From Gracilaria domingensis (taxonomy: Eukaryota > Rhodophyta > Florideophyceae > Gracilariales > Gracilariaceae): 64,000 nt of DNA. This document shows positions 3,081-64,000 of the stretch, one piece after another. Position 1 is the stretch's first letter, and every line of letters starts with the position of its first letter. The DNA is taken from NCBI GenBank assembly GCA_022539475.1, contig VCMS01000300.1, positions 1 through 64,000 on the forward strand, written 5' to 3'. The notes under the pieces were generated by a model. It saw only the letters and a program-made list of their open reading frames with translations. It did not search any database and was not told the origin of the DNA. The translations under genes were made by a program, and so were the position numbers.

Positions 3081-3737
3081 TTCCTCAATAGTTATTGGAC
3101 TTTGAAGGTAACGATACTGCTAAACTATCATTCTATCATCGTTGAATGAGGATTGTAACGTATGGTAGGTCACGAATCTTGCAGGGGGATATGTGGCGCT
3201 TTGCGCGGTATTAACGATCATTGCAGCGAGGTGCTCGACGCGGTGGTGCACGCGTTTGTCCTCCGTAACTCTTTTTCCGATGAACGCCAAAACATGTCCG
3301 TGTTTCTTTGATGTAAAGAGCGGTTGCGAGAGAAAGTAGCATTTCTGGAAGCCGGAGTTGCAATACCAGAGTTGGCAATACTAGTGCTTAACGACCACGT
3401 GTCCATAATGACGGCAGTTTGATCTTTTAACCGCTCTCTGTTCGTTACCAACATGCAAGACAGTCGCGCCGTGCTCATCTGTGACGACGGCTCGGACCTC
3501 ACTTTGACTGCCTCGCCCGGAGTATGAGATGCACACGAGCTGAATCGCGTGTACAAGGCAGGCGCCATTATTAGAAATGGCCAAATGCATCTCTCTTTGA
3601 GCGTGAAAAGGCCCAAATTGTTTCAAGGATGCCGATACAGCTTCGAAGCCGTGAGAATGGTCCCAGGTGACCTGGAGAATGACGGTACTGCTACTCTGAG
3701 CGGCATTAAATATCGGTCGGTGATCTCAAATGTGCCG
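3081..3737. other. No supported gene
   Basis: Overlapping short frames on both strands (3218-3616 minus, 3381-3626 minus, 3549-3827 plus) have no recognisable motif. The plus frame runs into the duplicated cryptochrome promoter DNA at 3738, so it is unlikely to be a gene as drawn. Confidence 0.35.
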
Positions 3738-4555
3738 GTCATTGCCGCGGTACGACACGACGGTGGGCTTGCGAAACTATTTGGGGGAGATGGGACATGG
3801 AGAGGGCGAGAGGGGCGTAGGGGGTGAAGGAGTATTGCAGCGACGTTTGGGGTGGGGAAACTGTGTGCAAGGGCGCCGATTGGAGGAAGGCGACTGTACG
3901 GAGAAAGCTGAGAGGGTGGCGATCAACATGGCTAAGACGTTCGATAAGAAGCGTCGTTATCGTGGGAAGTATCGGAATTCAGAAACGACCGATCATTTGG
4001 GACGCCCCTGTGCGGCTGCGCCGCAGTGGGGTTGGGTCACATGAGTGGCAGGTTCGGAGTGGCGGCGCAGCGCAGTTGCAGCGTGGCCACGGAGTTGGTG
4101 AGGCGGAGAGAACGAGGGCGTGATGGCAGTGGTGGTGATGGTGGCGGCGGCGGCGCCAGCAACAGGACCGAAGGACGAGGGCGCGCGAGGTAGAAGTGAA
4201 TGGAGCCAGGTTGGGGCGCGCATCAAAAGCAGAATGCTGCGGGTGGAGCAGATGCTCGGGTCCGCTACAGGCCGCTCTTCTGCGGCGCGCGCTGCTGCGC
4301 CGATTGGCAACAACTGTGCAACAAACGAGCGCGTGCCACGTGCCCTGGCTGCCACTCGCTTTTCTTTTCGAGGATTTGGTCAGGTGCGTCATCTGCGAAA
4401 CGCCGCATCGCTGTAGTGCGGGGCCGAATAGCGCTCGGTATGATCTGCGTACGCATTCACTTCTCCGTTTTCCGCCGAGGTCGCTGCTCTTTGTGGCATA
4501 CAGCTGCCGTGAGTGGGCTCTGAATGGTCTAAACGACGCCTGCACGCTCTGGACA
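3738..4555 (-). repeat. Decayed duplicate of the cryptochrome 5' end and promoter
   Basis: This segment aligns, in the same orientation, with 10290-11140. It contains the first about 63 codons of the cryptochrome/photolyase gene plus about 620 bp of its GC-rich upstream region. Conserved blocks by eye include the stretch coding for FRKP, VV and YRGN, the CGCGCGCTGCTGCGCCGATTG block and the TGCCACTCGC block. The coding part is dead: the codon for Trp51 is TAG and Trp59 is TCG. The break next to 3738 falls at codon 64 of the intact gene. Both CACGTG boxes of the intact promoter are changed here, to CACATG at 4038 and CAGGTG at 4381. I see this as a diverged segmental duplication, not a second gene. 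Confidence 0.85.
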
Positions 4556-7207: not shown

Positions 7208-10200
7208 CTAAGTGAGTGGAAACATGCCTGGAACTGCAATTTTCTGTGAATGCGCTGTGGCCTGCGGTATCGAGTTTTGTCGTTCACCAGGATTCATTAG
7301 GTGTGCGTTAACCATGGGAGCAAATTGTCCAACGCTATAGAACTGATGCGCATGAACGTGATGAGACTGAGAAGCATTCGTACCATCTCCTGCGCCAAAG
7401 ACGTGGGAAGAGCCGAAGTCACTTGCGTTTAGAACAGAACCCATGACTAATGGGCTTGGCGACATCGTCACTGTAGGCATGCGGTTCACTTGTAGTGGAG
7501 CGGAAGAAAGTCGGGCAGCGTAACTAGGATCCAAGTCAAGTGGCATTGATGTCACGAACGGCTGTTGTGTAACAAAATGTGAGTGAGAAACCTTTCCCAG
7601 CTGCGTCTCAGTCGCCTGTAAATGCTGTGAGGAGAAGGGGACTTCAACAAATTCATGGCGTATTTGTGGCTGATGTCCAGCTTCTTGCGTCTGTTGCCGT
7701 TTTTCTTGAGCATCCTTCATACCCTTACGCCCTTGGAACGAATTAATCGGTTGAGAGAACATAGAGCCCGAAAAAGGAGGTGTATGATCTGAACTTGAGG
7801 AAGGAAATGGGCCTCTCCTGATACTCCCAGTAGATTGTGCAAATGCATCGTTCTCTTGTGCGTTGAGGAACTGTTGCACTTCGGGAATTTGCTTATTTGC
7901 CGCAGTTGGGTTCCCTTTGCTCGATGGTCTATTAGGTACCTTAGGAAATGAGTTTTCAGTTGGTCGTGGCGTCAGCAGCTCCTGATCCGGTGTTGAATCA
8001 CATGATGTCATGTCATTTCCAGCATATGAGGCAGCAGGCTGGGGTCGCGGTTCTCCATTCTCAGCCTTACTTTCAGTACGATGAAACCCTTCAACGTAAT
8101 GACCGGGAGTTTTCTCCTCATCCTTGAATGCGTTTTGTTCGACAACAGAATATTTCAGTGGTTCTCCGATTTGTTCTACCTCTTCCGACTTTGATGCAAA
8201 AAGTTCGCCAGACTGCTCAGCATTACCTCCTCCTGGTAAACGCTGTGCACCAACGCCTCGGTTTTCTGGTGATAACAGTACTTCTGTTGACATTCGCGGA
8301 TCTGTGTCAACATATTCATGTGCAGATATCAGAGCCTGCTCTATCGATTCGGGTTGATCAACCATCGGAGTCGGTAAGGCCCCATCTACTAAGCAAGCGG
8401 TAGTATCCATCGGCATGAAAGAGTCACCCACTCGTGAAGAACCTTGTAAGCATGACGAGGCTCGTTCACCTAAGGCCCATATGGAAGGCAGCAAGTAACC
8501 TTTTCCAGAAGGGTTGCTTAGCTCGTCATCCTTCACAGCTTCTGTTTCAGCCTCGGGCCACTCTATGACAAGCTTCTCTTCTTCTTCTCGAAATCTTCTT
8601 TTCCACACTCTATTAGCAGCAAATATCTGATTCATGACTGTCATTGCCTTAACTGCCCTACGCATTGCATAGTGCCTATCAACGACACGCTCGGGATAGG
8701 TATCTCCGATAACAATACCACACTTCTCTAGCAACTCCTGCGGTGCTTTCCACGGTCGGTGTATGTATTTTGTTGGCAATTTGGCCAATTCCGGAAGCCA
8801 TCGTCTGACATAATCACCATTCGGGTCTTGTCTGTAAGCTTGTTTCACAGGATTAACTAGAGTCGTCACAGGAAATGCATCAGTGTTACTGCCGGCCGTC
8901 CATTGCCAACCTAAAGCATTCGCAGAGCGATCGCCATCGACAAGAAGCCTGTAAAATTGCCGTAGTCCTTTAGACCAGGGTAGCAACAAATACTTTGTCA
9001 AGAAACAGGCCAGGAGGAATCTCATTCGGTTGTGAATCCAACCAGATTCGCGCAGTTCTCGCATTGCGGCATCTATAATAGGATATCCCGTAGTTCCATG
9101 TCGCCAGCAGTCGAATGAACCGTTATCCTCTGCCCAAGGAAACTTATAAAACTCTGGGATCAGTTGCTTCGAGTTCATTTCAGGGAAGTGATAAAGAATA
9201 TGGAAGGAGAAATCTCGAAGGCATAGGTTTTTGAGGAATGCACGCGCCGATTGGGATATGTGAGGACGGCGAACTCGCAATTTTCCTGAAACAAGAATAT
9301 CTTCCTGGTCTATTTGGTCTTTCGATGTGCCTTGTCTTCCATCTGATCCTGAACGCCGACTGTTTTGCGTCAGACTATCTGAGGCCGATGGTTGACAATT
9401 TGAAACGGATTCGTTTCCAGGTTTACCGAACTTATTTCTATCGTTGTTTCCAGGCTTATTGCTAACCGTAGGGTGATGCTGTCGAGGTGCAACATTGAGC
9501 GCCTGACCTGTTTTCGGGCCTTTTGGCAACGTGGTTTGATCCCATCGCGAAACTCGTAACTTTGTGGCATGGTACATTCTGCGAGGGCTGATTTCTCCAA
9601 AACAAATATATGGACTCAAACGACTTGTTCCTTCAAAATGTTGCCTACAGCAACTTTCACCAAAGATCGGGTAAACTTCGTTGAGAAAGCGATCAAGCTG
9701 TCGTTTTGCCTGTGAACTTCCTGCCTTCCAAATCTTAGCTAGATTACTGGCCATATCGTCTGAAATTTCGAATCCTAAGAGATCTAAACCAAGAGATTGC
9801 ACAAATGTGGATAGTGGCTGTAACCTTGATGGGGAAGGAAGCGGGCGAGGAGGAGGGGCGACGGTCATCCATGCGCTCATATATGCGTTGAAAGTGTCAT
9901 AGCGGGGGCAAGTTTCGGAGTTGGATAGCTCCCAGGGTTCGACAAGCAATTCAGCCTTGAAGCTTTCTGCTGTAAAGCCCTCTTGAGCCAGCTCTTCGCG
10001 TAGCTCTTCATCTCGTTTTAGTAGTTGAGGCTCATAGCATCGATTCCAAAACGCAGCCTCAGCACCTGTATCGATGAGGAAGCGTCGCAGCTCTTCAGTG
10101 CTCCTGCCCTTACGGGTATAAAGCTGCACTCCGAGTCGGCGCAAATCGTTCTGCATTTGGCGAAGGGAGTGAAGAAGCCTGGGTCCCAAACCAGCTCCAA

Positions 10201-10483
10201 AGCCATCCGACGGGTCCCATATAAACAAAGGAACGACCGGACCGCCTCGTTGAGCGGCGGTGAACAGCGCTGGATGGTCCTCGACGCGCAAGTCGTTGCC
10301 GCGGTACCACACGACGCTGGGCTTGCGAAACCATTTGGTGGAGGCGGTACGTGGAGAGGGCGAGCGGGGTGTGGGGGGTGGGGGGGTGGTGCGGCGACGC
10401 TTGGGCGGCGGAGATTGTGTGCGAAAGCGCCGGTTGGAGGGATGCCGCTGCACGGAAGGGGACCGGGTGGTGGCGTTCGGCAT
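7208..10483 (-). CDS. Cryptochrome/photolyase family flavoprotein with long tail
   Basis: A 1,091-residue intronless gene. Residues 1-50 are a basic Pro/Ser-rich leader. Residues 54-220 form the photolyase-type Rossmann domain (VVWYRGNDLRVEDHPAL), and about 225-610 the FAD-binding domain, interrupted by a low-complexity insert at about 315-400. The FAD domain holds WRHGTTGYP, W-I-H-N-R-M-R, the NALGWQW motif and DPNGDYVRRWLPEL. The electron-transfer Trp triad is present (W460, W503, W526). The residue facing flavin N5 is Asn522, as in photolyases; plant cryptochromes have Asp there. The remaining about 480 residues are a disordered tail, typical of photoreceptors. It may act as a blue-light receptor, DNA repair enzyme or both; the sequence does not decide. 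The ATG at 10483 precedes the basic leader. The gene is divergent from the CHD1-like gene, about 1.3 kb away. Confidence 0.93.
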   Translation of the reverse strand: MPNATTRSPSVQRHPSNRRFRTQSPPPKRRRTTPPPPTPRSPSPRTASTKWFRKPSVVWYRGNDLRVEDHPALFTAAQRGGPVVPLFIWDPSDGFGAGLGPRLLHSLRQMQNDLRRLGVQLYTRKGRSTEELRRFLIDTGAEAAFWNRCYEPQLLKRDEELREELAQEGFTAESFKAELLVEPWELSNSETCPRYDTFNAYMSAWMTVAPPPRPLPSPSRLQPLSTFVQSLGLDLLGFEISDDMASNLAKIWKAGSSQAKRQLDRFLNEVYPIFGESCCRQHFEGTSRLSPYICFGEISPRRMYHATKLRVSRWDQTTLPKGPKTGQALNVAPRQHHPTVSNKPGNNDRNKFGKPGNESVSNCQPSASDSLTQNSRRSGSDGRQGTSKDQIDQEDILVSGKLRVRRPHISQSARAFLKNLCLRDFSFHILYHFPEMNSKQLIPEFYKFPWAEDNGSFDCWRHGTTGYPIIDAAMRELRESGWIHNRMRFLLACFLTKYLLLPWSKGLRQFYRLLVDGDRSANALGWQWTAGSNTDAFPVTTLVNPVKQAYRQDPNGDYVRRWLPELAKLPTKYIHRPWKAPQELLEKCGIVIGDTYPERVVDRHYAMRRAVKAMTVMNQIFAANRVWKRRFREEEEKLVIEWPEAETEAVKDDELSNPSGKGYLLPSIWALGERASSCLQGSSRVGDSFMPMDTTACLVDGALPTPMVDQPESIEQALISAHEYVDTDPRMSTEVLLSPENRGVGAQRLPGGGNAEQSGELFASKSEEVEQIGEPLKYSVVEQNAFKDEEKTPGHYVEGFHRTESKAENGEPRPQPAASYAGNDMTSCDSTPDQELLTPRPTENSFPKVPNRPSSKGNPTAANKQIPEVQQFLNAQENDAFAQSTGSIRRGPFPSSSSDHTPPFSGSMFSQPINSFQGRKGMKDAQEKRQQTQEAGHQPQIRHEFVEVPFSSQHLQATETQLGKVSHSHFVTQQPFVTSMPLDLDPSYAARLSSAPLQVNRMPTVTMSPSPLVMGSVLNASDFGSSHVFGAGDGTNASQSHHVHAHQFYSVGQFAPMVNAHLMNPGERQNSIPQATAHSQKIAVPGMFPLT

Positions 10484-11140
10484 ACCCTAGACGTTTTGGT
10501 AAGGAGCGTCGCTATCGTCGGGGGGATGGGAATTCAGGGACGACGGTTCATTGGGGACGCCGCTGTGCTGCTGCACCGCGGCGGGGCGGGGTCACGTGAG
10601 CGATAGGTTCCGAGCGGCGGCGCGGGGCAGTTGCGGCGGGCCCCCGGAGGCGGTGAGGCGGCGGGCGCGAGCGCGTGAGGGCGGCGGCGGCGAGGCCGCG
10701 GCTACGGGATGGAAAGATGGGGGCGCCCGCGCGGCGGAAGTAGCGAAAGGCGCGGGCGGGGGCGCGTACCCTTGTATCAAAGGCGGGGGGGGCTGGGCGC
10801 GGAGCGGATGCACGGGTCAGGTGCACGCCGCGCTGCCGGGGCGCGCGCTGCTGCGCCGATTGCAAAACAGGCTGTTGTCCACAGCTGCGCAGCCAACGAG
10901 CGCGCGCGGCGCGCCCCGGCTGCCACTCGCCTTTTGTTTGGGGGACACGGTCACGTGTGTCATGCGCGAAAGGCCGCAGCGCTGTGGCGCATGGCCGAAT
11001 CGCGCCGTGATCTGCCCCGCGACCGCTCCCCCTCCCCGTGTTCCGCGGGAGCCGCAGCCCTGTGCGGCACACACTGTGTGCCACACAGCTGCCCGGGAGT
11101 GGGCCCCGCGCCATCGACGCGCACGACTGCGATCTGGCTG
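10290..11140 (-). repeat. Parent copy of the duplicated cryptochrome 5' segment
   Basis: This is the intact counterpart of the decayed copy at 3738-4555. It includes codons 1 to about 64 of the cryptochrome gene and about 650 bp upstream. The intact reading frame here and the nonsense codon in the other copy show which one is under selection. Confidence 0.85.
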
Positions 11141-33250: not shown

Positions 33251-34145
33251 TTTGTAGAGCAAACCCTCCTAAGGGATACTGTTTCGGTAGTGGCAATCAT
33301 AACTTAATCGGACGCCCATCGATTGGTACCTAGAGGGTATGAATAGCACGATGACGTGAATCCGGACCCGGAATTTGTACAGGTGTACCACTATTTGGTT
33401 GTTTGGATGGAGTGAATCTTTTCATAGTTTTTAGAAATACCCCGTGGGTTCTGGTCCGACACTGTCAGGACTGCCCGGGACGGGAGGTGCACATGAGGTG
33501 CTTAGATTAATCTATTATTTACATATTTTTGATAACCCTCTACAGGGCGGCTAATTCTACTACTTAGGTGATGGCTCACCGCCATCACCAACCCAGTAAA
33601 GGTAGCCCGGTATGCGGCTCTAACTATTTCGCCTGCGCGACGACTCCAACTCCTCGCGGAGCGAGTTACCGCAGCAGGGTCTAGTTATCCCCTGACTCCA
33701 ACCAGGAGAGTGCAGGCAGTGCACACCATTATTGGTGTTTTTTTTCTTTTGTTTTTCTTGTGATGCGTGGAGTGCACATATATTTGTTTACCGACCGGTA
33801 CTTCCTCTCCGCCCCAGTACTTGGGTTTGTTTCTGTTGTTATTTTTGTTTTTACCCTTGGTTTGGTTCATTACCATCTATTTCTATTTGGTTGTTCCACC
33901 TTTGGATGTCTACGTTTGGTTACGGATACCGTCATTGGTTAACTACGATGTAAACTACTGTGTCCGCCTTTTCTGGCCCTTTTCTAGTTCGGGCGTCTTT
34001 CTCAACCCTGTGGTATAGCCTGAAGTTCTCGTGGATTTACACCCACACTGGAGGATACGGGGTGCGCTTTCGCTGTGCGAACCTCTCTTAAGAGCGGGGA
34101 TTCGAACTGCCTCCGTGGCTTTTCCCTTTCTGGAATTGCTCCACA
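33251..34145 (+). repeat. Element 2 5' LTR
   Basis: 895 bp, collinear without gaps with 42951-43845. Ends are TT(TG in the other copy)TG and CCACA. It contains a perfect 9-bp stem hairpin with a 5-nt loop (33567-33589) followed by AGTAAA (33595-33600), and a T-rich tract at 33730-33760. Differences between the LTRs cluster in the first about 110 bp. Confidence 0.95.
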
Positions 34146-41215: not shown

Positions 41216-41323
41216 TAACTACCGAGCTTCACGGTCAGAACGGTCAACTCCCGTGATATCGAAAGTAATACTCGTGTTCGAGATGCGATAACTTCGCACT
41301 ACGTTGTCCAATTCGTATGGAAT

Positions 41324-41770
41324 TTGACTTGTGACGATCAGCTCTTCGCCCTCTTTCAGGGAATATTTTGTTTGGCTAGGTATCACTCGCGATTACCGAA
41401 CAACACGACGGTTGAATCAATACATCGATGCTTGATTGTGGAACCACTACTGGTTGTTGAAGGAGTCAATACGCGGTCAGAGCTGGACTCTTATACCCGC
41501 ATCATCTTGGGAACTCCGTCAGGAGACAGCATGGTGAATTCAACGACCGATCAGACGGTGTATCCACGTGAGTACGTTTTGGAGAAACTTGTGAATCACA
41601 AACAAGCTCCAAATGGAGAGTGGTTTTATCGTGTGCGATGGTATGGATTTCCGTCATCAGAAGACAGCCATGAATCTGTGAGACACCTGCCCAGGTCTTT
41701 CATTGTTCGCTATCACCGACGCACCGGTACATCACTACCGCCAAACATCGGCGAAGCCCAAACTGGGTGA
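41324..41770 (+). CDS. Element 2 chromodomain segment
   Basis: The frame 41324-41770 ends in a chromodomain: YPREYVLEKLVNHKQAP, WFYRVRWYGFPSSEDSHES, RHLPRSFIVRYHRRTG, and the shared EAQTG end. The aromatic cage is partly preserved (Y, W; the TWEP motif is SHES). The upstream part (about 41324-41530) has no recognisable domain. Confidence 0.75.
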   Translation: MTCDDQLFALFQGIFCLARYHSRLPNNTTVESIHRCLIVEPLLVVEGVNTRSELDSYTRIILGTPSGDSMVNSTTDQTVYPREYVLEKLVNHKQAPNGEWFYRVRWYGFPSSEDSHESVRHLPRSFIVRYHRRTGTSLPPNIGEAQTG

Positions 41771-42134: not shown

Positions 42135-42785
42135 TCATGATTGTAAGTACTGCGCCGCGAATGCGCGTAACTCTTCCGTCGTGGAAACGTCCCCGGGAAT
42201 GTTCACGCCCATTGAGGTCAGGAACTGGCGGATGGTAACCGCTTCTGGGTCAGCCACCAAGGGATTGCCCATAGCTAGGTTATAACCAAAGTCCGCACTC
42301 GGAGCGCTCATTCCACCATCTTGGTCAACGCCCACTGCGTCGTGGTCCATCATTGGATCGTCGAGGTCGCCCGGCGGTGCGAACTCGTCAGCATCGACAT
42401 ACCTCCTGGGGTGTCCATGAGGAATGATACACGGTGCGTCTAGAATGGCCGCAACCTGAGCAGGCGAACATAACACGCCCTCGTAGGAATCGTAATAGAC
42501 GAAATCACCGGCTTGGGAACTCCTACGTCCTGGAGAACGGTCGAAGACCCTCGGCTCGCCACGACAGCGCTGGTTAGAAGGCACGGTGTCCCAATCCAAG
42601 CTGTCAATGACATAGACCAGGTACCTGAGCTTTTTCAAGTTGGACTCACCCCCAAGGGGAACTCGCAGGTCGAGCGTGCGAAGATTGTTCCGTAAGGCCA
42701 TCGGAAGATACCAGATTCGGCACTGGTCATGCGCTTCCCATAGAAGGAACACGGCCACACGGGCAATCCATTCGGTTAGGAACAC
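42135..42785 (-). CDS. Antisense accessory gene of element 2 (C-terminal part)
   Basis: A 216-codon frame on the strand opposite to gag-pol, between the chromodomain and the 3' LTR. It aligns with the C-terminal half of the antisense gene of element 3: TEW-x2-R-x-A, EA-x-DQ-x-R-x-W, LDL-x-VPLGG, a DW motif, AGD-[FY]-V-[YF]-[YF]-D, and a DDPMMD / APMMD acidic segment. About 30 of 67 positions in the first block are identical by eye. No known domain is recognised. The N-terminal about 390 codons of the element 3 version are missing here; a related reading can be followed only about ten residues upstream. A TATAAATA box lies upstream at 42885-42892. The frame is open to its stop without lesions, unlike gag-pol of the same element. 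The 'M' at 42785 is a non-ATG codon. Confidence 0.7.
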   Translation of the reverse strand: MFLTEWIARVAVFLLWEAHDQCRIWYLPMALRNNLRTLDLRVPLGGESNLKKLRYLVYVIDSLDWDTVPSNQRCRGEPRVFDRSPGRRSSQAGDFVYYDSYEGVLCSPAQVAAILDAPCIIPHGHPRRYVDADEFAPPGDLDDPMMDHDAVGVDQDGGMSAPSADFGYNLAMGNPLVADPEAVTIRQFLTSMGVNIPGDVSTTEELRAFAAQYLQS

Positions 42786-42884
42786 ATAGGTACACTCGCG
42801 TTCGAGAGGTCTGGAGAGACTGGAGTGATATCCGAGTGTGGATCTGTGGAAGCCGAGTGTTCGGAACCCACCATCGCGGTCGGA

Positions 42885-42892
42885 TATTTATA
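42885..42892 (-). promoter_or_regulatory. TATA box candidate for the antisense gene of element 2
   Basis: TATAAATA read on the minus strand, 59 bp inside the 3' LTR edge and about 100 bp upstream of the antisense frame. Element 3 has CATAAAAG at nearly the same distance from its LTR. Confidence 0.5.
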
Positions 42893-42950: not shown

Positions 42951-43845
42951 TGTGTAAAGCAAACCCTCCGCAGGGACAGCGTCTCGGTAGTGGCAATCAT
43001 AACTTACGGAGACGCCCATCGATGGGGAACTCGAAGTTATGAGTAGCACGATGACGTGGATCCGAACCCGGAATTTGTACAGATGTACCACTATTTGGTT
43101 GTTTGGATGGAGTGAATCTTTTCATAATTTTTAGAAATACCAGGTGGGTTCTGGTCCGACACTGTCAGGACTGCCCGGGAAGGGAGGTGCACATGAGGTG
43201 CTTAGATTAATCTATTATTTACATATTTTTGATAACCCTCTACAGGGCGGCTAATTCTACTACTTAGGTGATGGCTCACCGCCATCACCAACCCAGTAAA
43301 GGTAACCCGGTATGCGGCTCTAACTATTTCGCCTGCGCGACGACTCCAACTCCTCGCGGAGCGAGTTACCGCAGCAGGGTCTAGTTATCCCCTGACTCCA
43401 ACCAGGAGAGTGCAGGCAGTGCACACCATTATTGGTGTTTTTTTTCTTTTGTTTTTCTTGTGACGCGTGGAGTGCACATATATTTGTTTACCGACCGGTA
43501 CTTCCTCTCCGCCCCAGTACTTGGGTTTGTTTCTGTTGTTATTTTTGTTTCTACCATTGGTTTGGTTCATTACCGCCTATTTCTATTTGGTTGTTCGACC
43601 TTTGAATGTCTACGTTTGGTTACGGATAGCGTCATTGGTTAACTACGATGTACACTACTGTGTCCGCCTTTTCTGGCCCTTTTCTAGTTCGGGCGTGTTT
43701 CTCAACCCTGTGGTATAGCCTGAAGTTCTCGTGGATTCACACCCACACTGGAGGATACGGGGTGCGCTGTCGCTGTGCGAACCTCTCTTGAGAACTTGGA
43801 TTCGAACTGCCTCGGTAGCTTTTCCCTCTCTGGGATTGCTCCACA
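42951..43845 (+). repeat. Element 2 3' LTR
   Basis: 895 bp, TGTG...CACA, gap-free partner of 33251-34145. Hairpin at 43267-43289 and AGTAAA at 43295-43300. GTTG follows at 43846-43849. Confidence 0.95.
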
Positions 43846-54174: not shown

Positions 54175-56535
54175 TCAGTTCTCTAACTCCTCTAATTCAA
54201 TCTCTTCGGTGCCTGTGTCTGCCTGAGCACATGAGATACGCTCATCATCTAAAAACATTGAATACATCTCCCCATGGGTAATTCCATCAGAAACATCAGT
54301 GTTCATCACTTCGTTGACCGCGCCATAACGTAACGCTACATACTCATTCTTTGATAGTTTTTGGACTGTCTTTGATCTCGTTTCAAGCAGCGAATCATTG
54401 AATGCACAAAACACCATCTTAGACACCTTGGTTTGTTGTAAGCGGTTTCTAGACGAGGTTCGTACCCTGCTTCAGAAATTAAAACTTCGTTCAACTGTTA
54501 ATGATGACGAACTAGAGCATAAAACGCGGAGCGCAAACTCTCCAAGGAGAGAGGATTTTGGATATTAAATCCAATAGTAAACTGGAGTTTCGCTTTACAT
54601 CATCAATAAACGCTTTCCGATGGGATCCTGCGACTGTGACCGCCACGACATACGAACGGACACAATTTCTCGACAGATTCGATCTACTGCCCCGTCTTCA
54701 CCTCTGTTACTTCGGAGCTTCTCAATCTCGGAAAAACATTGCGAGCGTACGAATGATAACACTTGTTGTACTAAATGAGGACGAAATAGTCCTAAGTTCT
54801 CAGCGAGGCTTCGAATATCCGATATGTATGCCATATGCCACATGATGCAATGGCGTCACTAGTGCAACCTTACGTCCTTCGCCCTTCATCCTGTCTTTGA
54901 AAACTTTCAAGATTTCTTCTCTACTGTGTGCGGTGTAAAATGGGGTGGTTGGGAGCTGTTTTATCTTTTCGAGAAGCTGCACCGAAGCAGGGTACACCTC
55001 TGAAAGCAGCGAAGACTCGTCGTCGAATATCCGTAAGTACTGACGGACAAGGCCAAATATATGATAAATGTCCAGAAGTTTATCATAAAGAGTGTCATTG
55101 CGTATCGTTTCCTTGAACGATTCTATCTTATTTCGGTTCCGGCCACTGTGTAAAGAAGAATGAAAGTCTGCACACTCGATTAATTCTCGAAAGACCTGCT
55201 TGCAGCGCAAAAAGGAAGCAATCATTGACTCTGAGGACGCAAATCTGGTTTGAGCCATCTTGCAAGGTAAGATTGCCGTTCGAGGAAGCTTGACACGCCC
55301 TAACTGGTCCAGCTCCACTGAACCTTGACTTCGAGGAGTCCGCAAATTAAACCTTGCTTTCATTTCTTTGAAGCGATGGTAGAGCTTAGGGTGATTTTTG
55401 AGGTCCCCAATGACGGCCGTGGCAAGCATCAAAACTTCGTTAATCCATTCTAACTTTCCCATGTCCTGCATCAGTAAATTTGCCAAGTGAGTTTGATCCT
55501 GGCAGGCAATCATATGCGTATGCTTCTCCAGAAGGATTTCCTTCGCTTTGACACACGAGCTCGTGTTGTTGCTTACAAGGGCACATAATCTCTGCTTATC
55601 TCCAAACTCTAACATTGAGTCTTCCACAATTCTGGCATAGAACGACGCGTCAAAGTTTGTAGAGCCAGTAAAAATAGACTTCAAGAAAAAGGTCTTTCTA
55701 ACTTTTTCCATACCAGTCAGGGAAAGCAGTACATTGACAACACCATCATTGTTAACATCAGTCCACCCGTCAAATACCAACGTTCCGTAACACTCTCTAA
55801 GCGAAGCTCGAATGGTTTGCGTAACACGAGCGTGCATTGACTCGTAGTAAACATCAATGTTCTTCGTGCTCATACGGTGAGGGTCCCGCAGCTGCTTGCT
55901 AAGTTGATAGTTTGCAAGTCGAATGATCTGGTAGAGATCATAACGTCCTTCTTCACGGCTTAAAAGTGAAAAAGGAAGCATGTTTTTGACAAAGAACCTC
56001 GTGACCAAGTCATTAAGTTTTGATCTTCGTTCATAGGACGTAATGCTTTCAGAGCTTCCAGATTGCTCTGGTTTCGCTTCAGAACATGTGCAAGGCTCTT
56101 TTTTGGTATCTATGGAAGCTCGAAGATTTGACTTAGGCTGACGAGACGACGCACTGTGCTTCCTTCTCTTTGACACAATCGGGGTTATAGGCCTTCCAAA
56201 CAATTCTCATCCACCACTGCTATAGTTTTCCTTGTAAACCGTAGCGAGACGCGAATCTCTCAAGAGCCGATTACGGATTTGCGAAGAAATTTTCTTACAC
56301 TTTACCGCGTGTTCTCCAAGCTTTGACACATTGGGTGTTATAGCCTTTGATTGAAAGCCACACGCAATGCAAGTAGGATATGTTGCGGTTTCTTCATTAC
56401 TATCACTATTACCTTGATCAGGGTGAAGCTGAAAAGGTCCTCCATCCACCACTTTTGCTTCTTTACATGGTGAGAAACTGAAGCACTGTCGGTTGTTTCG
56501 GTACGTGTGTGTGGGGCAGAGATTTGTTCCGACAT
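54175..56535 (-). pseudogene. hAT-family transposase with BED zinc finger
   Basis: Read on minus, the likely ATG is 56535-56533 (MSEQISAP). After a frameshift at about 56455 a BED-type finger follows (CIACG ... KLGEHAVKC, 56280-56380). TGA at 56207-56209 interrupts in phase. Then 54800-56203 carries the DUF659/hAT catalytic region: LVFDGWTDVNNDGVVN, LKSIFTGSTNFDASFY, VSNNTSSCVKA and ACQDQTHLANLLMQD. The expected VxDNAxNxxxA reads VSNNTSSCVKA, so the second acidic residue is Asn. A 7-bp tandem duplication (TATGCCA twice, 54827-54840) shifts the frame; the C-terminus continues in 54595-54843 and 54175-54426 (RSKTVQKLSKNEYVALRYGA, hAT dimerisation-like). Terminal inverted repeats were not found. 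It cuts and pastes DNA in active relatives; this copy is dead. Confidence 0.8.
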
Positions 56536-56538
56536 TGC

Positions 56539-57311
56539 TGTAGTGCAACCCGTGAGCGGGAAAAGACAACACGAAGACGTTCGGGATCTTCCTCTACGGA
56601 GGGTAGCGAAGCGAACAGAGCCTCTCTGGAATGGCACAACGAGCCGGGTGTAAGACCGGGGCCAAACCGTCACGAGGGGGCGATGAGAGTTGAAATAGAA
56701 AGGTGGAGCGGAGAAGGGAGTACCACGACACGTGGGTGTGCAATACCTCGGAAGAGGGTTGGAGGAAAGAAATGGAAAAGGAAAAGGAGAGCGAGAGCAC
56801 CACGAGGTGGGGCCTCGCGACAAGGTGACGAAGGATAACGGCGTACTGCCGGGGCTTTTCCTATACAGGGGCGAACGCGACAAACAGCGGTAAAACACTC
56901 CGACAGTTGGGTTCCTTTAGAGGACGCAGGGTGGATAAACGAACCGTGTCAACAGGGAGTCTCTCCGATTAGGAGTCGAGCACCGCCGAAGGCGTGAACG
57001 ATTAGAGACAAGACCCGTCAGTAGGGTCACCCTGGTTGGGGAACTTTACTGGGCGCGACAGCGGCGACGCCGGCAGGCTAAGTACTGTTCGCGCTAAAAT
57101 TAATGAACAATATTAACTAAACATTCCACAAATTGTGGCAATTCTCCACGTGTAGTGGCCAACCTCCCATGACTCACACACCGTGTCCCACGTGTCCTAC
57201 TCCCATCTCAGTGATGGCTACAGTCATATATTCCCCGACCCACACTCACCGCGTAGCGGGAAATTATGAATAGTCTCAAGTAAATACCTCAATCGAGGGC
57301 GTTGCACTACA
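56539..57311 (-). repeat. Element 3 3' LTR with 11-bp inverted ends
   Basis: Read on minus it starts TGTAGTGCAAC (from 57311) right after the polypurine tract and ends GTTGCACTACA (to 56539): a perfect 11-bp inverted repeat, 773 bp in all. AGTAAA (minus) is at 57045-57050, after a GC-rich imperfect fold (57051-57071). The pyrimidine-rich U5 resembles that of element 1. The flank next to it reads GCAAT (56538-56534), a candidate target duplication that cannot be checked inside the window. Confidence 0.9.
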
Positions 57312-57324
57312 TCTCCCCCTCCTG
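57312..57324 (-). promoter_or_regulatory. Polypurine tract of element 3
   Basis: AGGAGGGGGAGA (minus) directly precedes the LTR start TGTAGTG. Same position as GAGAAGGGGGA in element 2. Confidence 0.85.
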
Positions 57325-57372
57325 AGGCGGCAAGACGTCCTCGGAACGAGGTTGGCGAGGCCAGCGATGGCG

Positions 57373-57380
57373 CATAAAAG
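57373..57380 (+). promoter_or_regulatory. TATA-like box of the element 3 antisense gene
   Basis: CATAAAAG on the plus strand, about 62 bp inside the LTR edge and about 155 bp upstream of the first in-frame ATG (57535). A C/A-rich leader follows. Element 2 has TATAAATA at almost the same place. Confidence 0.5.
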
Positions 57381-57534
57381 CACGCCCTCTTCCGGCTCGC
57401 CGGTGCAATAAACTTCTCCCTCACACACTCACACACCCACACCTGCCGTAGCAGTGAACGAACCTCCTTCGAGTGAACCCAACGCTACAGCGCTCCAAAC
57501 CAACCCTCCGACAACGCCGGTGATCGACCTCACG

Positions 57535-59287
57535 ATGAGTGGACTGCCGCCAAACCAACCTCCGAACCAACCTCCGTTCCCCTCCGGGGGCTTCACCGGG
57601 TTCCGATCCGTACCGCTCCCGCAAGGCGGGCAACTGACCAACCGAACTCCCAGCACCGCCGCTGGTTCTGCCGGCCATCACGGTTCTGGTTCCTCCGCGC
57701 AACAGGCCCCTAACGCGGGTCCCTTCGGAGGGTTTCCAGCTGGCGTGCTCTGGCCGCCGTACAACTCCCTTGTGGGGCTCAATCCGGCGAACCGGGGTCA
57801 AGCTAGACGCCTCCGGCTCGCGCCGTGGTTTCACCCGACAGCGGTGTTCAACGAGAACCTCATCGCTGAGTACGCCGATGGGCGAGACACCCTTCCGGGG
57901 GACCTGCGTGCCATCGTGACCACTTCGTGGGATTGGCGCAGTCGCGTGGCCATCCCCTTGCACCATGTGCTGCGGGATAACCGGGAGTCCCGGGCTGAAG
58001 CTCATGCTGCGTTCGTGCAGGTGGCTTACAAACGGCAAAGCCTGGCTCCATTCGAGTTTCCGATTCCTCCGGGTCTCAACTTCGACGTTGAGCTATACCG
58101 CACTTGCGGGGAGATCAGCTACTGCGACCGCCTCGCGGCGTTGGAGACCTTCGCGTGGCGCGGGATGCCCGTAGCGCGGCAAGAAGCCATCTGTTGGCAG
58201 CGACCGATTATTCGGGCAGAATTTCGATACCTCTCCCGCCGTTCGCGGTCGAACTTCCTTCAGAACTTCATCCGTTTTGAACGGCGCGCTCGGTCCCAAC
58301 ATGGGTATTTTGTCCCGTACCAGAACGTGGAAATCCAGCGCATCGCTCCGGCGCACCGACAAGGTCGGTATGTAGCCCTCCCAGAGTGATGGAATTACCT
58401 GGAGGCGTGCCGGGGGTGCTATGTTGAGTTGCCCCTTGTGTTCACCTACTTAGGGTCCTATCTGCTGACAGATCCCCGTACCGGGTTGTGGTCGGTCGTC
58501 GTCACCGAATGGGCAGTCCGCACCGCGGCTTATATCCTCGCTGAGGCGTACGACCAGTACAGACTGTGGTTCATTCAACCTCGCGTGCGAGCCGCCATCC
58601 GAGGATTGGATCTTGCAGTCCCCCTCGGACCCCCTCGGGGGTCGTGCCAACAACGAGGAAGTCCTCGGTTTGCTGGACTATATCGACGGCGTCGACTGGA
58701 GTGAAGTCTCTCTCGCACAGAGCGGACGAGCGGACTCCCCCAACACGGGTGGCTTCGGCCCAGGTATGGGAAGAAATACCGCCTTGGCGGGCGACTATGT
58801 CTTCTTCGACCCGTGGGAGTACCGGGAGATCTTCGCTGAGGAAGCGGCTGAGCTCCGTTTCGCTCCCCGGCCCGTGCCGGCCGATCACCTCACTGGGTTC
58901 GTTGACTCCGACGAGTACTACCGAGATTACCTCGAGGTTGCCCCAATGATGGATAACGATCCCGATGATACGGGTGGTGACGATGGGGGAGTGATGGACG
59001 AGAGGCCTGAACCTCCGGCGGAGGGAGCGAGCGGCATTGCGCCGAGCACGGTCCCCGTCGCGACGGAGTCAGCTGCAGACCCTGCTCCGGTCCCTCCGGT
59101 TGCGGCCTCCGAGGCGAATCCCCCGCCTGTGGGTATGGACGAAGGAGCTATCATTGCTCGTTTCCTCCGCGGCGCGGGTCTGGGCGCGAATCTGGCCTCC
59201 AGCGATGTCGCCGCAATGACCGAGTCCTTGGCTCAACGCCTTGGCGGTGTACAACCTCCCGAGGAGGGCGGTGCTACCGGCCAGTAG
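57535..59287 (+). CDS. Antisense accessory gene of element 3, interrupted
   Basis: The gene lies opposite to gag-pol. The first in-frame ATG is 57535; the frame is already open from 57454. Part one (to TGA 58387-58389) has a Pro/Gly/Ser-rich start (about 60 residues), then a more folded region with VLWPPYNSLVG, WDWRSRVAIPLHHVL, LAALETFAWRG, ICWQRPIIRAEFRYLSRR and NFIRFERRARSQHG. The same phase continues past the TGA (WNYLEACRGCYVELPLVFTYLGS) into the block shared with element 2 (VTEWAVRTAAYIL, EAYDQYRLW, LDLAVPLG). A 10-bp tandem duplication (58621-58640) then shifts the frame, and the end (ANNEEVLGLLDYIDGVDW, AGDYVFFDPWEY, acidic stretch) runs to 59285. Its original size would be about 600 residues. 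No known domain; not gag-like or env-like as far as I can see. Confidence 0.75.
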
Positions 59288-59675
59288 CCGTCGTCTCTTC
59301 CGTCCCCATAGCTTGGGTGTATACCTGAATACAGTAGTGTAGCTTGAGATAAAGAGTATCCTTTCTTCTTACCCGTCTCGGACGGTGTCCTTTTGTTCCT
59401 CCCGGCATAGCCGGTTTTGCTTTGCCGTACGCCTGAAAACGCGCACCCTTCCGAGGGAAAAAACCATACCCACTGCGTTGCGTGGGTGCCACTACCAGCG
59501 AGCTGGATGAAAAACCCTCAGGAATGAGTCTTCTTTCCGAATATCGGTGTTCGAGCGGCGCGAGCCGGTCAAACCGTCCATACGGCGAGCATTCCCACCA
59601 AGGTGGTATGGACTCAATCCCGTTGCATGACGTGTGTGTGCCAACGATCTGACTTCCTCCGTTTCCACGGCAACC
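59288..59675. other. Spacer between antisense gene and chromodomain of element 3
   Basis: The antisense gene and pol converge here. Short frames only. A bidirectional transcript terminator is plausible, but no motif is clear. Confidence 0.4.
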
Positions 59676-61703
59676 TTATCCCACTTGGGCTTGATCCAGC
59701 GTCGCTGGCGGTGCAGTACCCGTTTTACGGTGATAACTAATGACCTTCGAGCGAGACAGGTGCTCGATTGGCTCAAGAGTATCCCAAGTTGGGTCGTAAC
59801 CGTACCAACGGACGCGGTATAACAAGATGCCCTCCTGGTCCCAGGTATGCCCGACAATGTCGGCGACAACGTACTCCTGAACGTACACTTGCCGGCCTTG
59901 CCGTGTTGTAGTCACATCTCCTTGCGACAACCCTTGTGGGGGTGCGATATCCACGAGTGGAACTTCGGCGCGGCTTGCCGTAATTCGTGCGATTGCTTCA
60001 CCTCTTAGGGGGCGCTCAATACCCGAATCACGGTGGTCGCCTCGCCTTCTCATGGCGCGCATTTCTGCCTGCGCAGTATCCCGCTCGGCGGTGGCAATTC
60101 CCTTTTGAGGGGTGGTGACGCTAGATGAGCTGGGGACGCCTTGCCGTCGTACCGCAAGTTTGCGTGGATCCTTCCGTCGTGACGGTTCAGTCGGTGCCGC
60201 AGCGGCTTGCTGATTGCCGTTTCCGCTTGACGCGGGAGATGCCTCCTCACGGGGCTCGACCACCGTGCGTGCACGTGACTGCTCCAACGGTTGATTTCCA
60301 AGCTCCCTTGGGAGAACCGCCTCCCTGTTACAGGTGTCGCCCAACGGCTGCGGCGTTGAATTTCCAATTTTTCCAACTTTTTGATTCCCGTTCTGAACGG
60401 CTACGTCCGGGTTATCCGGGCTTTTGACACCGCCGGCGGCGTTCGATCTCGCGATCTCGGAACGCGGCTGCGCTTGCGCCGATATTTTATACCCAGTACT
60501 TGGTGATTTCGTACCGTCCTTGACGTGAACTCTCCCCGGAGCGTCCGGCATTCCACCAACGGTGGTGTCAGTGTATACGGAGGCACTTGGGGTCCCTTTT
60601 TCTCCTGCTCGAGGCTGCTCCGCAGTATTTCCCAGGGTTCCTGGTCCTTCTGCATCGCGTTGCGCGGTGCGTTTCGGTGTCGCTGCGCTTTCCCCAGTGG
60701 GGCTTCGTTCCGACGATGTCGGCTTTATGTCGGCGACATCATTCGACTCCGTTTGACCCAGCGCGGCTGGTAAACCACGAGTTTCTTGTGACTTCAACGA
60801 TTCCGCTTCTGCGTGAGTGCCCTCAACCGGCGACGGTGTAGACTTCCCGTGGACGGGTGTATGTTGCGATCGTTGCGAGCGCGTGGTCCCTTCACTGACC
60901 GGAACATCCGGAGATGTCGGACCAGTCCGTGCTGCACGGTTGTTCTCACGACGCGACGTCGGAATTGAATCCTCAGCAGAGCGGATATCCTCCTCCCCCT
61001 CCTTAGATGGAGCGGCGTGAGGAGTGGCAGAGCGTCCCGCATCGCGGGTTAGCGAACCCAACGATGGGGTCGAGACGGCGGTGCCAGTGTGGCTATTGTT
61101 TTCCGACGCAGTCGGGTGATCCGACTCCACCGGGAGGTCTGTAAGGCCTTTGTTGGGGTGGGGCAAGACTGAAGGTCTTGACACCACATTTGTTTCCGGT
61201 TGTACCGGTGTTGTTGAGTCCGTAGACACGGGTTCCGTACGAGACGGGGTAACCTCAGACGAGGGTGGGGGGGCCAGTACCACGCGGTCGCGGGAGATCC
61301 GCTCCTGCGCGTCAGCGACTTGTACCACCACAGTGTCCGGTGTAACCGAGATTACCTGGAAGGGTCCATCCGCCACAGGCGAGAGCTTATGACGTTTATC
61401 CCTTTCAGGGTTGTACTGTTCCTTCCGTACGAAGACACGGTGACCCACAGTAAGTGGTTCAGGGGTTCTTCCTCGCAAGCGAGCGTCAAAATCACGCTTG
61501 TAAGCGGCTTGGGCTTTTGCCATGGACTTCCGAGCAGCGGGGACTAACTTCGTTAGCGACGCCTTCCATTTTTGGCGGTAATCACCCACGGATGGGAAAT
61601 TGCCCAAGGTAGCTTTTGATTCTAACGCCACAGGCGGTCCTTGACAAGACCAGTTCGAATGGGGAAACACCAGTAGTCCTGTGCACCTGCGTGTTATACG
61701 CAA
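59676..61703 (-). CDS. Element 3 integrase C-terminus, long linker and chromodomain
   Basis: One open frame of 675 codons. It begins within the end of the integrase core (a frameshift at about 61625 joins it to the core), then the GPY/F domain (KRDFDARLRGRTPEP, FVRKEQYNPERDKRHKLSPVADGPFQVI), a disordered linker of more than 400 residues rich in Ser, Thr, Pro, Glu and Gly, and a chromodomain at the C-terminus (YVQEYVVADIVGHTWD, LLYRVRWYGYDPTWDTLEP, LSRSKVISYHRK, ending in QAQVG). The chromodomain has Y, W and W at the cage positions. The linker is very long for this family; it is shorter and broken in elements 1 and 2. Because it is open over 1.2 kb, selection has kept it until recently. Confidence 0.88.
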   Translation of the reverse strand: MRITRRCTGLLVFPHSNWSCQGPPVALESKATLGNFPSVGDYRQKWKASLTKLVPAARKSMAKAQAAYKRDFDARLRGRTPEPLTVGHRVFVRKEQYNPERDKRHKLSPVADGPFQVISVTPDTVVVQVADAQERISRDRVVLAPPPSSEVTPSRTEPVSTDSTTPVQPETNVVSRPSVLPHPNKGLTDLPVESDHPTASENNSHTGTAVSTPSLGSLTRDAGRSATPHAAPSKEGEEDIRSAEDSIPTSRRENNRAARTGPTSPDVPVSEGTTRSQRSQHTPVHGKSTPSPVEGTHAEAESLKSQETRGLPAALGQTESNDVADIKPTSSERSPTGESAATPKRTAQRDAEGPGTLGNTAEQPRAGEKGTPSASVYTDTTVGGMPDAPGRVHVKDGTKSPSTGYKISAQAQPRSEIARSNAAGGVKSPDNPDVAVQNGNQKVGKIGNSTPQPLGDTCNREAVLPRELGNQPLEQSRARTVVEPREEASPASSGNGNQQAAAAPTEPSRRKDPRKLAVRRQGVPSSSSVTTPQKGIATAERDTAQAEMRAMRRRGDHRDSGIERPLRGEAIARITASRAEVPLVDIAPPQGLSQGDVTTTRQGRQVYVQEYVVADIVGHTWDQEGILLYRVRWYGYDPTWDTLEPIEHLSRSKVISYHRKTGTAPPATLDQAQVG

Positions 61704-62238
61704 AGGTTAACGCGTCAGTGTATAAGTCCCATGTTTTTGGGTGGTCAGCAACGTAAGAACGGAGAGATGCCAGCATCGTACGGTTATACCGTTCAACCTG
61801 CCCATTACACTGGGGATGGTAAGTGGTTGTGAAAAGATTTTTCACGTCCATGATGCGGCAAACATCCAGGAAGAACCGGGATGCGAACTGCTTTCCGTTA
61901 TCGGATAATAACTCCACAGGAGGGCCGTACACAAAGATCCAGTGCGTGGCAAATGCCTTCGCGACTGTGAATGCGGTAATCCTCTTGAGAGGTACTGTCC
62001 GAACCAGTTTCGAGAACCCATCGGTGATAACGAGAAGAAATTTGTTACCTCTCCGAGTGGTAAGCAATGGTCCGAGGATATCGATTGCCACAAATTCAAG
62101 CGGCGCCCTGGCAGGGAATAGTTTCACTTTTTTCGAATTCCTTCGGAGTTTCACGCGATTCTTCGCGCACTCGGTGCAGAACCGCACCGTAGCGTAACAA
62201 TCCACTGCCATGGCGGGCCAGTAGAAGTCTTCCCTCAA
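61582..62238 (-). CDS. Element 3 integrase catalytic core
   Basis: CTEC of the zinc-binding domain, then FVAIDILGPL (first Asp, 62080-62082), LLSDNGKQFAS (second Asp) and TTYHPQCNGQVERYN (Glu). The spacing is 59 residues between the two Asp and 35 between Asp and Glu, the DD35E pattern. The zinc-binding region upstream meets TAG at 62284-62286, where element 1 has Tyr (SHYAK). Confidence 0.92.
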   Translation of the reverse strand: MREDFYWPAMAVDCYATVRFCTECAKNRVKLRRNSKKVKLFPARAPLEFVAIDILGPLLTTRRGNKFLLVITDGFSKLVRTVPLKRITAFTVAKAFATHWIFVYGPPVELLSDNGKQFASRFFLDVCRIMDVKNLFTTTYHPQCNGQVERYNRTMLASLRSYVADHPKTWDLYTDALTFAYNTQVHRTTGVSPFELVLSRTACGVRIKSYLGQFPIRG

Positions 62239-62877: not shown

Positions 62878-64000
62878 TCAAACAACTGCGAGACACTCTT
62901 TCTCCGAAACGGAGTAGTTCCGTTCGTGAACTTTCAGCGAACGTGACCAATAACCAATTGGTTTTCCTTCTCCTTCAGGAGTGGTTTGGAACAATGCGCA
63001 TCCCACTTGGTGGTCGCTTGAGTCCTTGTCCACAGAGAACGGCAGGCCGGGTTGTGGTAACGATAAGATCGTTGCTGATGTGACAGCCTCCTTTAAGGAG
63101 TTAAATGCTTCCGCTTGTGCGGGCGTGAATGGGTCCAGTTTTGGTGGCTGACCTTTCCGCAAGATTGCGTTCAAGGGAGCCGCAATGTCCGAAAAGTTCG
63201 GCACGAACCGTCTGTAGACGTTGACCAGCCCTAAGAAGGAGCGTAATTCCGTTTGAGTCCGCGGTGCCTTCGCCTTGGCGAGTGATTTGACGCGAGCCTC
63301 CTCGATCATCAACCGTCCTGGACGGATGATGTGTCCAAGATGCTTGACAGTATCGGTGAAGAATTCACACTTCCTCAGCTTGAGGGTTATACCTGCATTG
63401 CGCAGAGTGGTCATCACGTCCCTGACATGGGCGAGATGGTCGTCCAGGTTACTGGAGAACACGATAATATCGTCAAGGTAGACGAAACAAGTCCGCCACT
63501 TGAAGCGGTTCAACAAGATGTCGATTGCACGCTGGAAGGTAGCGGGGGCGTTGGCTAAGCCGAAAGGCATCCGCTTGAAGCGGTAACTGCCCGAGTGGCA
63601 AACGAACGCGGTCTTATCGCGGTCTTGCTCCCTAACGGGAACTTGCCAGTATCCCCAATTAGCGTCCAATGCCGTGAACACGGTAGCGTTGCCGAGCGAA
63701 TCGATGCACTCGTCCATACGAGGGATGGGGTACGTATCTCTGATCGTCACGGCATTAAGCCGGCAGTAGTCGACACAGAACCTCCAGGTTCCGTCGGCTT
63801 TGAGTGCCAGTACAACTGGGGATGCCCATGGCGACTGGGCGTTTTCAATCACGCCTGCGCGAAGCATCTTATCCACTTGGAACTGTTCTTCTTCCCGAGG
63901 CTTCGGTCCTGCCCTGTAAGGGGGTTGCGCTATCGGACGCGTATTCGGCAGCAAATCGATACGGTGTTCCGTTGCATTTATCTCTCCAAGAGAGCCATCC
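62878..64000 (-). CDS. Element 3 reverse transcriptase, running off the window
   Basis: NTRPIAQPPYRAGPKPREEE, SPWASPVVLALKADGTWRFCVDY, FTALDANWGYWQVPV, YRFKRMPFGLANAPATFQRAI, YLDDIIVFSS (63469-63480) and LGHIIRPG are the RT motifs in order, with both metal-binding Asp residues. KAPRTQTELRSFLGLVNVYRRFVPNF and YWSRSLKVHERNYSVSEKECLAVV complete the thumb/RNase H junction. The frame is intact for 358 codons. Confidence 0.95.
   Translation of the reverse strand, partial: DGSLGEINATEHRIDLLPNTRPIAQPPYRAGPKPREEEQFQVDKMLRAGVIENAQSPWASPVVLALKADGTWRFCVDYCRLNAVTIRDTYPIPRMDECIDSLGNATVFTALDANWGYWQVPVREQDRDKTAFVCHSGSYRFKRMPFGLANAPATFQRAIDILLNRFKWRTCFVYLDDIIVFSSNLDDHLAHVRDVMTTLRNAGITLKLRKCEFFTDTVKHLGHIIRPGRLMIEEARVKSLAKAKAPRTQTELRSFLGLVNVYRRFVPNFSDIAAPLNAILRKGQPPKLDPFTPAQAEAFNSLKEAVTSATILSLPQPGLPFSVDKDSSDHQVGCALFQTTPEGEGKPIGYWSRSLKVHERNYSVSEKECLAVV

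Follow-up and report, generated by a model that had tools for sequence, protein, structure and literature searches.

The antisense gene in two elements of the window

Why do diverged Ty3/gypsy elements carry, opposite to gag-pol and between the chromodomain and the 3' LTR, a gene for related proteins, and what might such a gene do for them? The question is raised by two elements (hereafter elements 2 and 3) of the window, i.e. the whole stretch of 64,000 nucleotides of Gracilaria domingensis DNA that was analysed, which is part of contig C300 of the genome searched (77.9 Mb, 680 contigs). The original prediction had placed an antisense gene in both elements, and both genes were found where it had put them. 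The relatedness of the two proteins was confirmed as well, with 32 of 96 (E 1e-12) and 21 of 45 (E 3e-12) positions identical. The relevant features of the window are:

33253..34145, + strand: 5' LTR of element 2, 94.8% identical to 42953..43845
41219..41770, + strand: frame with the chromodomain end of the element 2 pol, from the chromodomain search
42135..42887, - strand: antisense gene of element 2, stop-to-stop frame of 250 aa, N-terminal part absent
42953..43845, + strand: 3' LTR of element 2, 94.8% identical to 33253..34145
56539..57311, - strand: 3' LTR of element 3, with the ends TGTAGTGCAAC...GTTGCACTACA and the first U3 base at 57311
57200..59640, + strand: exchanged cassette, comprising LTR tip, polypurine tract, antisense gene and 3' non-coding part
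57224..57269, + strand: bipartite motif of the LTR tip, TCATA-N36-TATGA
57312..57322, - strand: polypurine tract of element 3
57367..59287, + strand: antisense gene of element 3, broken copy, with a first ATG at 57367 and a second at 57535
59676..61703, - strand: C-terminal pol frame of element 3 with the chromodomain (PF00385, E 4.7e-06)
61582..62238, - strand: integrase part of the element 3 pol (PF00665)
62878..63954, - strand: reverse transcriptase and RNase H part of the element 3 pol (PF00078, PF17919)

Element 2 lies on the + strand, bounded by the LTRs at 33253-34145 and 42953-43845, and element 3 on the - strand. In other copies the LTR-end matches are paired at a spacing of about 11.0 kb (contigs C476, C368, C267, C135, and C252), so the length of complete elements is about 11.8 kb, which would put the 5' LTR of element 3 past the end of the contig. 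While both window elements do carry the gene, neither copy is intact, a point that the original prediction had missed. The copy in element 3 is interrupted by two in-frame stops, one at 57409-57411 and one at 58387-58389, and changes frame near 58640; the stop at 57409-57411 lies upstream of the second ATG, the start taken by the original prediction, and matters only if translation starts at 57367. The copy in element 2 has lost about 1.1 kb of its 5' part (77 of 1101 positions aligned).

Some further observations concern the surroundings of the elements. A repeat on contig C370 (50841-51640) is 93% identical to the left flank of element 3, ends at the last base before the LTR and looks like an empty site. 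The flank adjoining the LTR of element 3 also holds a DUF659 gene (54803-56203, - strand), which we take to be hAT-transposase-like. Moreover, the window has direct repeats at 3627-4306 and 10181-10862, which are 6.55 kb apart (72% and 82%) and GC-rich.

A gene family across the genome

Describing the gene from two elements was correct for these elements and understated its extent, as the family numbers hundreds of copies in the same genome. Many of them are uninterrupted and encode a protein of 608-721 aa. Of 150 matches scored for the element 2 protein, at least 57 sit in frames of 590 aa or more without a stop, and so do, among the matches listed, at least 45 of 130 for the N-terminal part of element 3. 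Measured from stop to stop, families A (the element 3 type), B, C, D, and E have 667, 651, 660, 721, and 608 residues, respectively. Family F, known from coordinates, comprises 63 matches (32-36% to the protein P0009), most of which have frames of about 610 aa. In five families, the distance from the LTR edge inward to the first ATG is about 49-86 nt, as counted by hand on the sequences.

The orientation of the gene was followed in 62 loci that had been picked by the presence of the antisense gene, two of them being the window's own. A chromodomain is present in 58 of these loci, on the strand opposite to the antisense gene in every case (58/58), and in 54 of the 58 the gene ends 357-403 nt from the chromodomain. 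Loci L016, L026, L053, and L069 had no chromodomain match; in the element of L069, Pfam places the chromodomain in the adjoining pol frame, again on the opposite strand, and the same antisense arrangement was seen by Pfam in family D. The antisense gene is thus positioned tail-to-tail with pol and begins just inside the 3' LTR. The family C loci L028-L036 are 98-100% identical, with uninterrupted antisense genes, which is a sign of a recent burst.

Architecture and relatives of the protein

In the protein, a conserved core of some 390 residues is flanked by tails rich in Pro and Ala, and a conserved short motif is found at the C-terminus. This two-helix motif, with a Pro/Ala-rich linker before it, can still be made out in P0009 and P0015, which are distant relatives. 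The named relatives, which support the red algal origin, are hypothetical proteins of Gracilariopsis chorda (BWQ96_10156, BWQ96_03215) and of Gracilaria domingensis itself (FGB62_50g12, which matches contig C50 with 99% over residues 163-419 and 92% over residues 1-174). There are also unnamed ones, both closer (P0007 with 45%, P0011 with 58%) and more distant (P0009, P0010, P0014, and P0015 with 29-34%).

None of the antisense proteins matched a Pfam family over the cut-off, bZIP included, and a single N-terminal tail gave a sub-threshold match. Searches of the antisense protein against NCBIfam, PHROGs, and the PDB sequences gave no match, and none of 17 pattern matches in IMG/VR was confirmed. 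Transposase_28 (PF04195) is absent from the antisense proteins and had no match in the genome at E <= 10. No membrane segment was found in 10 proteins (best 19-residue hydropathy 1.0-1.5). The core is net acidic in nine of ten proteins (+1 in the tenth), which does not suggest direct DNA binding. Structure prediction, which had been proposed as a check, yielded no fold: the AlphaFold2 model, built with 11 sequences, had a mean pLDDT of 43, and a structural search with it returned no match at E <= 0.001. The better-modelled stretches of P0008 were residues 521-550 approximately, i.e. the C-terminal helix pair (10-residue blocks at 83-86), and residues 91-160 (blocks at 67-79).

Selection on the protein

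Since the window copies are broken, dN/dS was measured between an intact copy of family A (L043) and one of family B (L047). Across the 387 codons of the core, dS was 0.78 and dN 0.107, giving a dN/dS of 0.137 (bootstrap 0.096-0.188), and the core domain is under purifying selection. The selection that had been proposed for the shared protein is therefore borne out by a core ratio that is far from 1, and the data support a real, selected, protein-coding antisense accessory gene common to diverged Ty3/gypsy elements. In the A-B core, the frame of the antisense gene contains no stops and the five other frames 4-22; minus frame 1 also has a low ratio (0.24) but 20 stops. Differences between the two cores at codon positions 1, 2, and 3 number 44, 32, and 150.

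Outside the core, the A-B ratios were 0.47 for the N-terminal tail, 0.35 for the linker, and 0.43 for the C-terminal motif. The corresponding values between families C and E were 0.59, 0.74, and 0.34, with 0.15 for the core, and only the A-B ratio is firm, as dS is near or beyond saturation between more distant families. The tails evolve faster than the core, and the core in turn changes faster than the reverse transcriptase (dN 0.475 vs 0.139 between families A and D). Four pairs taken from within families had ratios from 0.47 to 0.63, in keeping with what recent copies undergoing unselected decay should show.

Exchange of the gene together with the LTR tip

The reverse transcriptases of window element 3 (family A) and of L073 (family B) are 97% identical over 315 residues (dS 0.02), whereas the antisense cores of A and B are separated by a dS of 0.78 (L043 vs L047). 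Along the alignment of element 3 with L073, the LTR body is 95-98% identical, the part from 57200 to about 59500 only 48-89%, and the part from 59600 on 94-100% in 43 of 44 bins, with 91% in the one remaining. At the level of sequence, these comparisons show that the gene has been exchanged at least once, as one cassette with the adjoining ~110 nt of the LTR (its U3 tip), an event that the original prediction had not noted. Its pol-side edge, the right edge in element 3, lies between about 59500 and 59680.

Backbone classes were drawn from the best 30 matches of the N-terminal part of element 3. The loci with cassette B are 95-100% identical to L047 across the LTR tip, the gene, and the 3' part, and they differ in what surrounds the cassette. 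LTR body and pol end are 94-98% and 97-100% identical to L047, respectively, in L048, L050, L052, L055, L060, and L063-L065, 77-78% and 85-86% in L046, L049, L054, L058, L059, and L062, and 76% and 81% in L056 and L057; L051, L053, L061, L066-L068, L040, and L045 were left out of the classes as mixed or partial. Compared with each other in four pairs, members of the two latter classes agree to 95-96% over the LTR body and to 90% over the pol end, so we regard them as variants of one second backbone. A scenario of three cassette-B backbones with repeated exchange at one edge was rejected, the third backbone being such a variant. The LTR-side edge is located at about 57200 in five of the six pairs examined, and the sixth, between two variants of backbone 2 (L058-L056), has no clear edge. 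A single exchange of the cassette between backbones 1 and 2, in either direction, suffices for these combinations; the agreement of edges is thus not independent evidence, and the common edge at 57200 is no independent proof that gene and LTR tip belong together.

Backbone 1 occurs with cassette A in five loci (L039, L041-L044) and with cassette B in nine (L047, L048, L050, L052, L055, L060, L063-L065), which shows, as far as can be read from the copies, that both combinations multiplied after the exchange. A search with the pol end found at least 21 full-length places at >=96% identity with the best 40 of 271 candidates scored, and these places include both cassettes, judged by coordinates. 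No exchange was seen among 12 loci of family C (96-100% alike), nor a clear one among 17 element-2-like loci, five of which (L014, L016, L017, L023, and L026) align poorly at one or both ends. From these alignments, exchange is established for the A/B group only.

A further copy of the element 3 cassette and pol end, together with its flank (88%), is located at C93:166263-171096. It was rejected as proof that the broken copy still transposes, the shared flank pointing to a segmental duplication, and also as a recombinant within the cassette, as it tracks the window copy throughout the part compared.

A conserved motif in the LTR tip

Within the exchanged ~110 nt, every one of the six families read (A-E plus element 2) has the motif TCATA-N36/37-TATGA. 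Combined with the polypurine tract, this pattern occurs at 447 places in the genome and the reversed pattern at none; other spacings of the same pattern were found at 15 places (24-35) and 8 places (38-49). Copies of the same family are not independent, so the fair count is six of six families plus family-F-like places, e.g. C5:5316 with an adjoining gene match at C5:5589. When 13 places were checked by letters, eight lay upstream of a scored gene match on the same strand, and the other five had no scored match. Of 47 rows, in which the two window elements are counted twice, 43 have a longer form of the motif, A[CG]TCATA, at -84 to -87. On contig C144, matches to the LTR-tip pattern at 66960, 78550, and 90147 follow each other in equal steps of about 11.6 kb, a spacing as it might be found in a tandem array of elements with shared LTRs.

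The two halves of the motif are inverted copies of each other. Co-varying operator halves were considered and rejected, as the trace of 19 was matched or exceeded by 516 of 720 permutations between families; the best 11-nt inverted repeat was unusual in element 2 only (1 of 100 shuffles). Because the flanks do not co-vary, we read the motif as a candidate core promoter or binding site common to the families and not as a family-specific operator.

Possible functions of the antisense gene

The best reading, plausible though well short of assured, is that of a trans-acting regulator with its own promoter in the LTR tip, working like the antisense genes of retroviruses. The U3 tip would hold this putative promoter, as suggested by the fixed distance of the motif to the LTR edge and its position upstream of the start codon, and the antisense mRNA would start close to where the 3' LTR borders the interior of the element. 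The protein would act in trans, most likely in the nucleus, and by analogy with HBZ it might regulate the expression of the element or the response of the host. An own promoter and action in trans fit a protein that is selected, a motif that is fixed upstream of it, and a gene that has been exchanged against a constant polymerase; such a mode of action has been proposed for the antisense ORFs of plants and described for HTLV (PMC7264820, PMC11963269). That the gene modulates the element, as the original prediction had suggested, is likewise a hypothesis. A close fit to one polymerase, integrase, or LTR body seems needless, since one polymerase has two versions of the protein and one version has two backbones.

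These same combinations weigh against the protein being a partner of the replication machinery (in nuclear import, in chromatin targeting, or as a factor of the particle) instead of a regulator. We consider such a role rather unlikely, even if it deserves attention: the chromodomain accompanies the gene in 58 of 62 loci and, by Pfam, in an element of a fifth family, protein and reverse transcriptase group alike at the deep level (A with B and C with E being closest), and the accessible part of one publication suggests that antisense additional ORFs of plants matter for retrotransposition (PMC7264820). However, one pol backbone is found with two proteins separated by a dS of 0.78, in several loci each, and one version of the protein resides on two backbones, which makes a closely fitted replication partner appear less likely than a trans regulator. 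The exchange might also have been a single recombination accident, by template switching or gene conversion, with edges that are functionally meaningless. One event is enough for the observed combinations and the copies are numerous and interspersed, yet this explanation seems unlikely, given that both combinations multiplied on backbone 1, so that the exchanged gene was at least tolerated, and that conservation of the tip motif across families does not depend on the exchange.

Another, quite unlikely possibility is that the antisense RNA is primary and the protein secondary, with the overlap of sense and antisense transcripts giving rise to double-stranded RNA and to small RNAs by which the element is kept in check. 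By geometry, the sense genomic RNA must cross the whole cassette before reaching the 3' LTR, and such a role is discussed for plants in the part of PMC7264820 that was accessible. Antisense RNA alone is an improbable function since the protein itself is conserved: selection at the amino-acid level and protein relatives at 29-34% go beyond what RNA alone would explain. An envelope-like gene, brought to mind by the position between pol and the 3' LTR, is hardly credible given the opposite orientation and the lack of a membrane segment in the proteins examined.

Returning to the trans-acting regulator, the cassette might be regarded as an 'immunity module', in which a control protein would be passed together with its LTR-tip promoter between different backbones. 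Lambdoid phages pass immunity regions among themselves, and it is from this analogy that the idea, which we find very doubtful, is drawn. If true, an element could gain a new control identity or escape from cassette-directed small RNAs while its polymerase remains unchanged. Natural exchange has in any case provided matched pairs, in which the same polymerase stands next to different antisense genes, and has placed one version of the antisense gene on two backbones. What the gene does is thus testable against a constant background. The conserved motif of the LTR tip offers a concrete promoter candidate.

Comparison with known systems

Antisense genes located between pol and the 3' LTR are already known from plants and one fungal group. 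What is new, as far as the searches of the literature reach, is the group of hosts, the presence of a chromodomain in elements with such a gene, the family of proteins, and the joint exchange of gene and LTR tip. No antisense gene in red algal retrotransposons appeared in the titles and abstract beginnings of the open PMC literature, and a survey of LTR elements in 300 plant genomes that includes Rhodophyta (PMC8282616) may hold such elements. The phenomenon also gains a protein family without a known fold, a non-plant host, and elements with a chromodomain.

Antisense additional ORFs between pol and the 3' LTR of plant elements, i.e. gene23 of Grande, RIRE2, and ORF4 of Retand, are the nearest parallel, and PMC7264820 describes an own promoter and a nuclear product for the Grande gene. 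The antisense proteins of Retand carry Transposase_28 (PF04195), as stated in the accessible part of PMC11963269. An antisense ORF between pol and the 3' LTR and a conserved protein (dN/dS 0.137) are two characteristics that the seaweed gene shares with the aORF-3R class of LTR retrotransposons. The parallel to Tat elements such as Grande that had been drawn thus holds for the position of the gene and fails for membership: Retand is a non-chromovirus while the seaweed elements have a chromodomain in pol, and the Retand protein has PF04195 while neither the seaweed protein nor the genome has a match. The accessible descriptions of the plant ORFs (PMC7264820, PMC11963269) mention no exchange of the gene together with the LTR tip.

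Outside plants, brtn is an additional antisense gene in Boty-like elements of Botrytis cinerea (Zhao et al. 2011, as cited in the accessible parts of PMC8365987 and PMC7264820). Compared by description, brtn and the seaweed gene are alike in being antisense additional genes of non-plant LTR retrotransposons. Among retroviral antisense proteins, HBZ carries a bZIP domain, whereas the seaweed protein has neither this nor any other known domain over the cut-off, and hosts and proteins are unrelated. HBZ and APH-2 of the human T-cell leukaemia viruses are nuclear proteins (PMC11963269), and the antisense promoter of these viruses is located in the 3' LTR (PMC7264820), both according to the accessible parts of these sources. 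The likeness of the seaweed gene to HBZ and APH is a comparison of mechanism only, and lies in an antisense gene that is read from the side of the 3' LTR.
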